A stretch of 64,000 bases of DNA from Caldimonas mangrovi. Lineage in GTDB: Bacteria > Pseudomonadota > Gammaproteobacteria > Burkholderiales > Burkholderiaceae_C. Each line of letters starts with the position of its first letter. The stretch's first letter is position 1. Positions 2,652 through 7,211 of this stretch are shown here, one piece after another. Where the stretch lies: the NCBI RefSeq assembly GCF_023721835.1, contig NZ_JAMKFE010000022.1, positions 1-64,000 on the forward strand, given 5' to 3'. The position numbers were made by a program, and so were the translations under genes. The notes beneath the pieces were generated by a model. That model saw only the letters and a program-made list of their open reading frames with translations. It was not told the DNA's origin and ran no database searches.

Positions 2652-3629
2652 ATGAACCGACGACTCTGGCTGCAAGCGCACGCCGCCCTCGGCTGCGCGC
2701 TTTCCTTCCCCTCGCTGCTCCAGGCGCAGACGCGCACCGTCAAGCTGGTGGTGCCCTACCCGGCCGGCGGGCCGCTCGATGCGATCGCGCGCGTGCTGGC
2801 CGACAAGGCCAAGGACGCGCTGGGCAACGTGATCGTCGAGAACCGGGCTGGCGCCGGCGGCAACCTCGGGGCCGACCACGTGGCGAAGGCGGCAGCGGAC
2901 GGCAACACCATCGTGATGGGCGCCGTCGCGACGCATGCGATCAACCCGTGGCTCTATGCCCGCGTTCCCTACGACCCGATTCGCGACTTCGCACCGATCA
3001 CGCTGGTCGCACGCGTGCCGAACGTGCTGGTGATGAACAGCGAGGCCGCGTCGCGACTGGGCATCGGCTCGGTGAAGGATCTCGTCGCCTATGCGCGGCA
3101 GAACCCCGGCCGCCTGAACTACGGCTCGGGCGGCAACGGCAGCGCCGGACACCTGGCCGGCGAGATGTTCAAGAAGCAGGCCGGCATCAGCATGGTCCAC
3201 ATTCCCTACGCGGGCGGTGCCCCGGCGCAACTGGGCCTGCTCGCGGGCCAGGTCGACCTGAACTTCGACAACCTCGCGACCGCGTCCGCCAACATCCGCT
3301 CCGGCAAGCTCAAGGCGTTGGCGGTGACCACGTTGCAGCGCTCCAGCGCCATGCCTGAGCTGCCGACCATCGCCGAGTCGGGTCTGCCCGGCTTCGCGGT
3401 CGACACCTGGTTCGGCCTGTTCGCGCCCGCCCAGACCCCCGCCGACGTGGTGGCGCGGCTGAACGACGCCTTCGTCGCGGCACTCAACGACGCAACCGTC
3501 AAGGCCCGCTTCGCAAATTTCATGGCCGAGCCGGCGCCGACCACGCCGCAGCAGTTCGGGGACTTCGTGAAGGCCGAACTGGCCAAGTACGAGCAGGTCG
3601 TGAAGGCCAGCGGCGCCCGCATCGAATGA
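2652..3629 (+). CDS. Tripartite tricarboxylate transporter (Bug family) substrate-binding protein
   Basis: A 325-residue periplasmic binding protein of the Bug/TctC family. The N-terminus has a signal peptide ending near the AQA of LLQAQT, then the family hallmark VVPYPAGGPLDAIARV. These proteins bind carboxylates and other small polar ligands, and Burkholderiales carry many orphan copies. No TctA/TctB membrane partners are encoded nearby, so it is an orphan. The start at 2652 is chosen because it begins the signal peptide; the frame is open back to 2505 but that extension overlaps repeat-flanking DNA. Ligand cannot be read from the sequence. Confidence 0.9.
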   Translation: MNRRLWLQAHAALGCALSFPSLLQAQTRTVKLVVPYPAGGPLDAIARVLADKAKDALGNVIVENRAGAGGNLGADHVAKAAADGNTIVMGAVATHAINPWLYARVPYDPIRDFAPITLVARVPNVLVMNSEAASRLGIGSVKDLVAYARQNPGRLNYGSGGNGSAGHLAGEMFKKQAGISMVHIPYAGGAPAQLGLLAGQVDLNFDNLATASANIRSGKLKALAVTTLQRSSAMPELPTIAESGLPGFAVDTWFGLFAPAQTPADVVARLNDAFVAALNDATVKARFANFMAEPAPTTPQQFGDFVKAELAKYEQVVKASGARIE

Positions 3630-3670: not shown

Positions 3671-3700
3671 TTGACGCGACACGGCAAGCTCGCGTAGTCT
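3671..3700 (+). promoter_or_regulatory. Candidate sigma-70 promoter of the arginine leader
   Basis: TTGACG (3671-3676) and TAGTCT (3695-3700) are separated by 18 bases. Transcription would begin about 3707-3708, i.e. at or one base before the ATG of the leader peptide, making that message leaderless. No Shine-Dalgarno sequence precedes the leader ATG, which agrees. Inferred from consensus only. Confidence 0.5.
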
Positions 3701-3707
3701 TCAGCCC

Positions 3708-3770
3708 ATGTTGACGCAGCTCCTGCTCACCGCCAAGCATTGGAATCGACGTACTCGACGACGACGTTGA
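3708..3770 (+). CDS. Arginine-rich leader peptide (20 aa)
   Basis: A 20-codon open frame encodes MLTQLLLTAKHWNRRTRRRR. Six of the last seven residues are arginine (codons CGA CGT ACT CGA CGA CGA CGT, then TGA), four of the six being CGA, usually a rare codon in GC-rich proteobacteria. It lies between a promoter-like sequence and a strong terminator hairpin and 117 bases before an acetylornithine aminotransferase-type gene. The Arg codons overlap a possible 7-bp hairpin (TCGACGT near 3746 pairing with ACGTTGA near 3764-3770, one G-U pair). This is the standard layout of a ribosome-mediated attenuator sensing charged tRNA-Arg. The function is inference; the frame and codons are directly visible. 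Confidence 0.7.
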   Translation: MLTQLLLTAKHWNRRTRRRR

Positions 3771-3811
3771 GGGCTCGTTCCTGCTCGGCTCCGCAAGGAG
3801 ACCCCCTTCCC

Positions 3812-3845
3812 AGGCCACGAGTTACCCCTCGTGGCCTTTTTCTTT
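3812..3845 (+). terminator. Factor-independent terminator / attenuator hairpin
   Basis: GGCCACGAG (3813-3821) pairs perfectly with CTCGTGGCC (3828-3836) across a 6-base loop and is followed by TTTTTCTTT. It sits inside the leader of the aminotransferase gene, 43 bases after the leader-peptide stop, so it must be read through or prevented for the gene to be expressed. Confidence 0.88.
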
Positions 3846-3886
3846 GCCTGCGCCATCCGTGCAGGTCCCACGTCAGCGAGGACACC

Positions 3887-5101
<1,215 letters not shown>

Positions 5102-5104
5102 GCC

Positions 5105-6301
5105 TCACAGCTCCTTGCGGCGGATGAAGCTGGAGCGCTTGGCGTCGTCCGGGTAGTGGAACTGGATCTCGCCGCGGCGCCACACGCCGAGCCAGATCAT
5201 GTTGCGCGAGAAAGCGTCGTGGTCGCTCGCCGAGAACGGCTTCTCGTGCGTCGTCACGACGCCGGCGTAGGGGCGCTCCAGGTTCTCGAGCGCCTGCTTC
5301 AAGGCGTCGCCCGAGGTCTCGCCGTTGGTCTGGAACATCACGCGCAGCATCAGGTGCACGGCGTCGTAGGTCTGCGCGGCGGCCATCAGCGAGCCGAGGG
5401 GCTGGTTGCCAGCATGACGCTTCAGCCGCGCAATGAAAGACATGCGGCGTTCGTTGGAGATGTCCGGGATGATGGTCTGTACCATCATCGCCCCCTCGGC
5501 ACCCGCGCCGCCGGTGTCCGGCACGGTGCGGAAGGACAGCGGCCATGGCCCGTAGAACGCGGCGCCGAACTGCGTTGCGGCGCGTGCCCGCGCCATCACC
5601 GCTAGTTCGGGGCCGACCGTGTAGCCGATCACCGCCTGGGCGCCGGCAGCCTTCGCGGCCTGCATCGCCTGCGTCAGGTCCTTCACGCCGAGATCGAAGC
5701 GAGCCACATGCACCGGCTTCAGCTTGTGCTCGGCGAGAAAGCGCTCGACGTCCTTCAGGCCGCCTTCACCGTAGCCCGTGTTGTCCGCGAACACCGCCAC
5801 CCGTGTGTAGCCGCGCTTGACGATGTCGTCGACCAGAAAGTCGGCCTGCAGCGTGTCGCGCGCCGACATGCGGAAGACATAACTTTGCGCTGCCGGGTAT
5901 TGAGCCGTGACCGCGGAGCCGGTCGCCACCGGCACCACGAGCAGGTGCTTGTGGTCCTGGAACACGCTCAAGGCCTTCAGTGCGACGCCCGTGTTGCAAA
6001 AGGCGATGGTGAAATCGACCTTCTCGTTGAGCACCAGGTCCTCGGCCACCTTGCGGCCTTCGTCCGGCACCGCCTTGTCGTCGCGCTGCACCAGCTCGAT
6101 CGGCCGGCCCAGGTAGCCGCCCACTTCGTTGATCTCCTTGGTCGCCAGTTCCGCGCCCAGCCGGGCGCTGTTGCCAAAGTCGGCCGAGCCCCCGCTGAGC
6201 GGGCAGATGAAGCCGATGCGTACCGGCTTGGCGCTCTGGGCGACGACCGGAAGCGCGGCAAAGGCGAACGAAAGCGCAACGAGGGCGCGGCGGTACTGCA
6301 T
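5105..6301 (-). CDS. Branched-chain amino-acid-type ABC transporter binding protein (LivK-like)
   Basis: A 398-residue periplasmic binding protein of the Leu/Ile/Val-binding (type I) family. A signal peptide with cleavage near VVAQSAKP is followed by the family start VRIGFICPLSGGSADFG, and the alternating two-lobe fold is evident through FAFCNTGVALKAL-type segments. The ATG at 6301 follows AGGAGA about eight bases upstream. No permease or ATPase adjoins it; a complete livHMGF set without a binding protein lies 17 kb away at 23.6-27.2 kb, so this could be its partner or serve another system. Members also bind aromatic acids and amides, so the ligand is open. Confidence 0.88.
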   Translation of the reverse strand: MQYRRALVALSFAFAALPVVAQSAKPVRIGFICPLSGGSADFGNSARLGAELATKEINEVGGYLGRPIELVQRDDKAVPDEGRKVAEDLVLNEKVDFTIAFCNTGVALKALSVFQDHKHLLVVPVATGSAVTAQYPAAQSYVFRMSARDTLQADFLVDDIVKRGYTRVAVFADNTGYGEGGLKDVERFLAEHKLKPVHVARFDLGVKDLTQAMQAAKAAGAQAVIGYTVGPELAVMARARAATQFGAAFYGPWPLSFRTVPDTGGAGAEGAMMVQTIIPDISNERRMSFIARLKRHAGNQPLGSLMAAAQTYDAVHLMLRVMFQTNGETSGDALKQALENLERPYAGVVTTHEKPFSASDHDAFSRNMIWLGVWRRGEIQFHYPDDAKRSSFIRRKEL

Positions 6302-6485
6302 GAGATTCTCCTGACTGCATCGGGGGACCGGCGCGAGACTGCCGCATCGCGCAGTGCTCCCGGATCGGGACCAACCCTGCGTCGAAGGCCGATTGCGACA
6401 TGCTTCACAAACCGCTGCTGCGGGCCGGCTGAACACCGGCTGAGAATCGGCAGGAAAGACGTCGAGCGACGTGCTCAAAACGCCT

Positions 6486-7211
6486 TCACGGCGGGAATGC
6501 CACGGCCGGAGGGGCGAGGCTTTCGTCGACGCGCCACAGTTGAGCCGGCTCTGTCGGCATGCCCTCGCCCGCTGCACGTAGGGCCGCCGTTTCGCCAAGC
6601 ATCACGCTCAGGGTCAACGCCGCTGATTGCCACACGTGGGCGTTCGCGCTGCCCGGCTCGCTCGGCGACACGCGCAACCGTTGCAGCACGGCCGGCGAGA
6701 CGGCCCCGCCACGCTGCTTGACCCGAGCTTCCTTCAGCGTCCAAGCGATGTAGAACACGCGCTCGAGACCGTCCCGTTCGATCCGCTGTGTCAGCCCACG
6801 GCGCTCGGCCGGCGTCAGCACAAGAGCAGACAGCCCCTCCAGGCGATCGCGCGCGCGATGCGCCTCGATATCAAGCCCGATCGGCTGCGGCCCGCATGCC
6901 ACCGCGACCCAGTCGCCGCTGTGCGCAATCGCGACCGATGGCCACGGCCCGCAGACAGCGGCGGACAATACGCATGGGGGACCATCGGGTACGCACGACA
7001 CGGTCCATTCCGATGCTGCGCCACCGCACGACTCGGCCAGCAGCTCCCGCAGCAACCAGCGCCCGGAAAGGAAATGGCCGCGTCTGCGCGGGGCCCGGAT
7101 GGCAGCGAGACGCGTACGTTCTTCGCTGCCCAGCCAGTTCAGTCCGTGTTCATCCACCCGCCTCAGGCATTCGCGGACGGCTTCGACCCGGACTTGAACC
7201 GGCTGTGTCAA
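6486..7211 (-). CDS. 4'-phosphopantetheinyl transferase of the APE cluster
   Basis: A 241-residue Sfp-type phosphopantetheinyl transferase. GLDIEAHRARD carries the first magnesium ligand Asp and WTLKEARVK carries the conserved Trp/Lys-Glu motif. It converts apo acyl carrier proteins to the holo form using coenzyme A, so it should activate the two carrier proteins at 21.2-21.7 kb. The frame opens with TTG two bases from the end of the preceding gene's stop; there is no better ATG, although a GTG at codon 19 is possible. It is the last gene of the leftward pigment operon. Confidence 0.85.
   Translation of the reverse strand: MTQPVQVRVEAVRECLRRVDEHGLNWLGSEERTRLAAIRAPRRRGHFLSGRWLLRELLAESCGGAASEWTVSCVPDGPPCVLSAAVCGPWPSVAIAHSGDWVAVACGPQPIGLDIEAHRARDRLEGLSALVLTPAERRGLTQRIERDGLERVFYIAWTLKEARVKQRGGAVSPAVLQRLRVSPSEPGSANAHVWQSAALTLSVMLGETAALRAAGEGMPTEPAQLWRVDESLAPPAVAFPP

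Follow-up and report, generated by a model that had tools for sequence, protein, structure and literature searches.

A probable arginine-codon transcription attenuator ahead of a PRK03715-type argD gene in Caldimonas mangrovi and related betaproteobacteria

What controls an arginine-pathway gene that stands behind a short, arginine-rich reading frame and a terminator? The question is posed by one locus in the window (the whole 64,000-nucleotide stretch of Caldimonas mangrovi DNA analysed here). By the usual teaching, bacterial arginine synthesis is repressed by ArgR, without attenuation; ribosome-mediated transcription attenuation is the textbook model for control regions of the trp/his type. 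A search of the window genome for ArgR (TIGR01529) gave no match, with 9 of 14 control genomes matching. ArgR is highly conserved in gammaproteobacterial groups and absent from other proteobacterial classes (PMC5343134, in the excerpt available), which leaves the control of betaproteobacterial arginine genes to be explained. Weighing the sequence comparisons below, we consider it very probable that the locus works by ribosome-mediated transcription attenuation, sensing charged tRNA-Arg to control the PRK03715-type argD behind it. The switch is of a known kind; its novelty would lie in the arginine specificity and the leaderless design, and a response to arginine is predicted.

Working downstream along the forward strand, we see a -35 element, TTGACG (3671-3676), and, after an 18-nt spacer, a -10 element, TAGTCT (3695-3700), 7 nt upstream of the leader ATG at 3708. 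TAGTCT is a weak -10 and a generic promoter scan listed no promoter here; support for the promoter comes from relatives. The leader ORF (3708-3770; MLTQLLLTAKHWNRRTRRRR, then stop) has 20 codons and ends in a stretch of seven with six for Arg (CGA in four cases); these regulatory codons (CGA CGT ACT CGA CGA CGA CGT) occupy 3747-3767, and homologs carry an Arg-rich ORF at the equivalent place. The promoter pair, the frame and its run of arginines had all been picked out by a sequence-only reading of this DNA and are present as it described them. The regulated gene (ATG 3887 to 5101) encodes a class III aminotransferase by Pfam, whose match to NF002985 (PRK03715 acetylornithine transaminase), at 553.2 bits, falls just short of the cut-off of 568; the acetylornithine transaminase-type assignment made earlier agrees with this.

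Three pairings can be drawn between leader and gene. The protector hairpin (1:2, 3754-3771) joins CUCGACG (3754-3760) to CGUUGAG (3765-3771), and is therefore built from Arg codons and the stop codon; a hairpin over these codons had been proposed, and both folding and an RNAalifold consensus of ten related leaders return it. The antiterminator (2:3, 3772-3823) sets GGCUCGU-u-CCUG (3772-3783) opposite CAGG-cc-ACGAGUU (3811-3823), pairing 3772-3778 with 3817-3823 and 3780-3783 with 3811-3814. The sequence-only reading was right that GCTCGT (3773-3778) could compete for the 5' arm of the terminator, but saw no strong antiterminator where 11 bp are found. The intrinsic terminator (3:4, 3812-3845) reads AGGCCACGAG-UUACCC-CUCGUGGCCU plus a U-run, the stem spanning 3812-3837 and being followed by TTTTCTTT; its T-run had been noted correctly, although the stem measures 10 bp and not the 9 bp first given. 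The hairpin alone folds at -18.4 kcal/mol, and 41 nt separate the end of the terminator from the start of argD.

The stretch 3706-3887 folds better than all 200 of its dinucleotide shuffles (z -6.18). The generic scan that listed no promoter finds one terminator, against 1.2 +/- 1.2 in shuffles; the terminator alone is therefore no evidence, and the case rests on comparison with relatives, in which the terminator is kept. Within the window genome, GGCCACG-CGTGGCC occurs at three sites, with a T-run behind that of the leader terminator only, and a pattern search for further copies of the arrangement gave none, just a single chance match with three mismatches.

For the comparison, homologs were gathered by protein search, with matches in 41 of the 399 genomes sampled from the family (E 1e-100) and in 63 of the 399 sampled from the order (E 1e-118), and by a scan of named genomes that gave at least 80 loci; 152 loci with scores of at least 366 bits and more than 250 nt of upstream sequence make up the set. 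A strict rule for the terminator, namely a perfect stem of at least 8 bp, selects 72 of the 152, or 71 distinct upstream regions once one identical leader is dropped. Fifty-seven of these 71 hold an ORF with at least three Arg in five residues, compared with 13 +/- 2.8 (maximum 18) over 40 dinucleotide shuffles; with nothing dropped the count is 58/72, and under a slightly altered rule 59/71. Clusters of other residues are far scarcer: Ala, the next largest, 17 vs 7.7 in shuffles; Pro 12 vs 7.3; Thr 4 vs 1.8; Asp and Cys 2 each vs 0.4; Tyr 4 vs 0.0, with the remaining residues within 2 sd. The four regions with Tyr clusters in short ORFs, where shuffles give about none, are recorded as an observation in their own right.

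Since an ORF chosen for its arginines would carry the answer within it, leaders were also defined by promoter alone: TTGAC or TTTAC, a spacer of 15-20 nt, a -10-like hexamer, and an ATG or GTG 4-10 nt later. Such an ORF is present in 47 of the 71 terminator-bearing regions (two of them offering two or more candidates), so that the spacing and start-codon geometry of the promoter-like pair first noticed in the window do recur; all 47 contain at least three Arg in eight residues. Among the 80 homologs without a detected terminator there are two promoter-defined ORFs, including that of L111, whose peptide marks it as a true leader, and among 39 paralog or distant-homolog controls there is one. 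In favour of chance, with an ordinary terminator that merely happens to adjoin an Arg-rich ORF, are the abundance of CGN codons that high GC brings, the 13 of 71 shuffled leaders that satisfy the Arg test and a terminator count at shuffle level; set against the 57/71 and 47/47 counts, the conservation of the whole set in relatives and the matched antiterminators described below, we regard such a coincidence as exceedingly improbable.

The same geometry bears on how the leaders would be read. Of 59 leaders, 42 have a TANNNT box 4-10 nt ahead of the start codon (2.2 +/- 1.6 expected), and just one has a Shine-Dalgarno-like word; the conserved box so near the start and the scarcity of Shine-Dalgarno words together make leaderless mRNA the most likely template for the predicted translation of the leaders. 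Behind the codon and box counts, the automatic choice of ORF erred at L122 and L128 and is questionable at L025, L042 and L203; these five loci remain in the totals. The strict terminator rule in turn misses true leaders, including L111, L114 and, by reading, L050, where argD is preceded by an Arg-containing short ORF and a GGCCACGG..CCCTGGCC hairpin that is imperfect and carries a T-run. Arg-containing short ORFs also stand before argD in L154 and L159 (family f30), with no perfect terminator detected. On the pattern of L050, L154 and L159, some homologs scored negative may be positive.

How widely is the arrangement found? In the window's family, 18 of 32 loci have a terminator by the strict rule and 14 of them a strict Arg ORF as well; by reading, an Arg-rich ORF accompanies the GGCCACG-type terminator in 20 loci out of 20. 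These leaders are of three kinds: RR..RRR-stop (MLTTLRPTDRALRRSSRRRC and VDATSSLSAVRVDSRRLARRRC, each then stop), ARAARAARAR (MSFASVAPAFARAARAARARSLVPCPAGERRAMRT, then stop) and RR....ARR.SG (beginning MHAYLSPRRHSSARRPSGVPCC). The remaining 12 family loci are without a terminator of this type, and their proteins belong to other subclasses by N-terminal sequence. In named relatives the Arg run is followed by Pro or Cys, as in the peptides of Cupriavidus (MNTALIRRRARTLLPFGVPRG), Undibacterium (MSSPNIVRRRRSLCEPGRMC) and Herminiimonas (MTAKLLRRRNQLPQPWMPCV), all ending at a stop; leaders are also found in Ralstonia, Pandoraea, Herbaspirillum, Oxalicibacterium and Propionivibrio. The named loci of Alcaligenes, Bordetella, Achromobacter and Dechloromonas gave no leader, save the doubtful automatic match L025 in Achromobacter. 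Conservation of the Arg run, the check that had been suggested for the original reading, thus extends to many genera and to several classes of leader that look unlike one another.

Across the order sample, terminator and strict Arg ORF occur together in 24 of 63 loci, a count that keeps L151, a duplicate of L034 (23 when dropped), and leaves out the second copy in G615, a match with an inner stop. Both strict tests are passed by 4/4 loci in family f3, 5/6 in f8, 3/4 in f24, 5/11 in f32, 1/2 in f11, 1/7 in f5, 1/7 in f21 and 1/3 in f40, and by one locus each in f15, f20 and f36; none passes in f4 (0/11), f30 (0/4) or f19 (0/1). By reading, the other six f5 loci have terminators with less dense Arg ORFs. 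It counts against the attenuator that many homologs are without the arrangement, and that the genus also has another argD, about 40% identical and adjoining argF, so that the share of the window gene in arginine synthesis is putative. None of 18 argF-linked paralogs in the genus has the complete leader set; in the copy that belongs to the window genome (L098), an RRR-containing ORF encloses a 7-bp hairpin, and there is no promoter box. On the favourable side, argD, argF and argG lie in a row behind the leader in an Undibacterium genome bin (L013).

We now turn to the RNA. From stop codon to terminator loop, the antiterminator structure, with a small inner hairpin included, folds at -19.7 kcal/mol; as its 3' strand is the 5' arm of the terminator, the two structures exclude each other. 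To model the ribosome, the RNA was kept unpaired over a stretch reaching from 15 nt upstream of the first base of the A-site codon to 13 nt downstream of it. In an RNA ending in the terminator loop, the antiterminator forms when the masked A-site lies at 3747-3759 and is absent with the A-site at 3762, 3765 or 3768; in the folding model, a ribosome stalled at either of the two final Arg codons (3762, 3765) would mask strand 2. With the leader free, the Arg-codon hairpin is embedded in a longer fold in which strand 2 is taken up, and the antiterminator is again absent. With the ribosome at the stop codon, 3783-3790 pairs with the 5' arm of the terminator (4+4 bp), a possible leak in the modelled switch. 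Folding that includes the 3' arm gives the terminator as the structure of minimum energy for the free leader and for every one of the five masked states tried, so the switch would have to be kinetic; that an early-formed antiterminator traps the 5' arm is the customary argument for attenuators.

If each terminator has its own antiterminator, the two should match within a locus. The 95 nt that precede a terminator were paired as well as possible with a 5' arm plus loop; summed over the 71 loci, the best duplexes give -1152.5 with own partners and -1018 +/- 18.5 with permuted ones (0 of 5000 permutations as low), the mean rank of the own arm being 0.31 (0 best, 0.5 chance), a signal that lies largely between classes because near relatives share arms. 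Shuffling each region separately leaves a modest antiterminator signal: z averages -1.37, and 21 of 58 loci lie under -1.645, one further locus being too short for scoring. Because the leaders are mutually related, z-values overstate independence. By eye, the partners change together: GGCUCGU with ACGAGUU in the window, GGAACCCG with CGGGUUCC in L090, GAACUCGU with ACGAGUUC in L115 and GAGCCGUG with CACGGCUC in L118. For ten sequences of the window class, RNAalifold recovers protector and terminator unprompted, with double changes in 3 of 24 pairs and a covariation term of +0.76, slightly unfavourable. The protector hairpin was computed for this class and judged by eye in the others.

A further strand of evidence, though one that bears on leader translation only indirectly, is provided by codon choice. 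The Arg codons of the leader clusters are CGC 85, CGA 77, CGT 45, CGG 4, AGA 4 and AGG 1, and those of the argD coding sequences at the same loci CGC 870, CGG 203, CGT 138, AGG 47, CGA 39 and AGA 11; from coding sequence to leader, the share of CGA grows about 12-fold (3% to 36%), while that of CGG shrinks (16% to 2%). CGU, CGC and CGA are read by one inosine tRNA-Arg, CGA slowest, and CGG by another tRNA. On these counts, the switch would most simply be taken to listen to the one tRNA-Arg with an inosine anticodon; structure may explain part of the bias, because CGACG also serves the protector stem.

It might then be asked whether structure came first, a CGACG-rich RNA being kept for its folding with arginine as a by-product, so that the locus answers to general translation or some other factor. 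CGACG does belong to the 1:2 stem in the window's class, and clusters of Asp and Thr, the other frames of a CGACG repeat, lie slightly above shuffles (2 vs 0.4 and 4 vs 1.8); other classes use different DNA, however (GCACGAGC repeats, CGACGCCGY runs), and the frame set by their promoters is still Arg, which makes this very unlikely in our estimation. Arrest by the nascent peptide, in which the ribosome is stalled from within its tunnel by an Arg-rich chain, possibly aided by a small ligand, with no need of codon starvation, has somewhat more to recommend it: chains rich in Arg can slow translation, and arrest is described for SpeFL and for the fungal arginine attenuator peptide. The Salmonella speF leader, moreover, combines control by ornithine and by Arg codons (PMC6386406, as excerpted). 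Yet the classes here share little peptide sequence beyond Arg, and the rise of CGA and fall of CGG point to tRNA; we hold arrest to be unlikely.

The preferred reading, a ribosome-mediated attenuator that senses charged tRNA-Arg, would work as follows. Transcription would begin at or beside the leader AUG. With ample Arg-tRNA, the ribosome would reach the stop codon and cover the start of strand 2 or, alternatively, depart and let strand 1 tie up strand 2; either way the 3:4 terminator would form and transcription stop near 3845. With Arg-tRNA in short supply, the ribosome would stall at the first Arg codons and mask strand 1, and the freed strand 2 (3772-3783) would capture the 5' arm of the terminator (3811-3823) once made, before the 3' arm exists; with the 5' arm captured there would be no terminator, and argD would be transcribed. 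Conservation, Arg specificity and matched antiterminators together give the idea of an attenuator at this locus stronger and wider support than the sequence-only reading had claimed for it.

In its order of parts, its regulatory codons within strand 1, its mutually exclusive 2:3 and 3:4 pairings and the putative biosynthetic gene downstream, the arginine leader resembles attenuators of the trp/his type; unlike them, it has Arg codons, nearly all CGC, CGA or CGT, in an ORF that is without a ribosome-binding site and starts at the predicted transcription start. The sequence-only reading had likened such a start to that of the leaderless trpL of Sinorhizobium. It shares with orf34 of the Salmonella speF leader the sensing of arginine through consecutive Arg codons of an upstream ORF (PMC6386406, excerpt), which is here predicted. 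The speF system, as described in that excerpt, differs in involving Rho, RNase G, access to the ribosome-binding site, two Arg codons and a polyamine gene, whereas the window has an intrinsic terminator before an arginine-synthesis-type gene; by reading, the window peptide and gene also differ from the ORF34 core (taken from the same excerpt) and speF, so the locus is not assigned to that type. carA of Pseudomonas aeruginosa likewise has a leader peptide before an arginine/pyrimidine gene and possible attenuation (cited in PMC4997734), but in the portion of that source available the attenuation is tied to pyrimidines, arginine acts at transcription and no run of Arg codons is mentioned. uORFC-8-2, a candidate cysS attenuator of Rhodobacterales, was likewise recognised by genome comparison from a leader ORF, regulatory codons and a terminator, and differs in its cysteine codons, tRNA-synthetase gene and alphaproteobacterial setting (PMC8632094, excerpt). 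Among the matches listed by our search of the open-access literature, there was no bacterial transcription attenuator with arginine codons for an arginine-synthesis gene; earlier accounts may exist.

The terminated leader RNA, or its peptide, might also work in trans, which would be compatible with attenuation. The precedent here is peTrpL of Sinorhizobium, which reportedly acts in trans, and the best Rfam match of the window is the suhB sRNA, below threshold (21.4 bits; gathering score 41). Against this, Rfam 15 gives no match at gathering score in nine loci (36091 bases) and the leader sequences vary widely among relatives, and we think a role in trans improbable.

Searches with the leader itself add little to the distribution obtained through argD. 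A search of 60 relatives with the leader DNA matched seven, three of which (G000, G002 and G015) are real leaders by reading; the other four matches lie within coding sequence and were rejected. Of model R1, run on 399 family genomes, all eight matches of at least 72 bits precede argD homologs, seven being R1's own source sequences and G085 alone independent. Nine weaker R1 matches are, by reading, argD loci already known. Of 18 R1 loci that were read, one is G085 itself, two are cut by contig ends and 15 look terminator-like or coding, among them some terminators after tRNA genes and two with an Arg-rich ORF nearby, neither before argD. Below about 45 bits R1 is unspecific, because it contains a generic terminator. 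Model R2, run on 300 order genomes, gives nine matches above 35 bits at known argD loci (four used in building the model); of nine weaker loci read, six resemble plain terminators or coding sequence and three have a leader of a second kind, before a putative permease gene in two of them. This lead excepted, neither model widened the set beyond argD in the family and order genomes.

These last three loci (L257, L259 and L267, from G603, G668 and G534) have a similar leaderless leader, with TTGACA, a -10 and an ATG, Arg-cluster peptides such as MPSFIAIRPNHPLPCVIRMVWRRSVRGPESVSA (then stop) and a GGCCAC..GTGGCC terminator. The next gene in L257 and L267 encodes what we take, from its look, to be an EamA/DMT-type permease; its NCBIfam match is 25.5 bits to PRK11272, for a fragment. 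The leader is perhaps a second arginine attenuator. Taking everything jointly, one may picture an order-wide leaderless attenuator that listens to one isoacceptor (the inosine tRNA, with slow CGA used and CGG avoided), serves as the main control of arginine synthesis in betaproteobacteria without ArgR, and has moved in one version to genes such as the permease; we put this forward tentatively, as a possibility that we would rather doubt than assert. A conserved arginine attenuator, if true, would give part of the answer on arginine-gene control in betaproteobacteria; the many natural versions of one switch would be material for studying how attenuators evolve, and the switch would offer a ready-made sensor for charged tRNA-Arg.

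Finally, the neighbourhood of the locus may be old. Directly downstream of argD in the window lies a convergent gene (5105-6598, minus strand), presumably for a branched-chain amino-acid-type ABC binding protein, and at the corresponding convergent place L036, L051 and L090 also have genes, which we assume to encode an ABC-transporter ATPase. Upstream of the attenuator, 2652-3629 looks to us like the gene of a Bug/TctC-type periplasmic substrate-binding protein.
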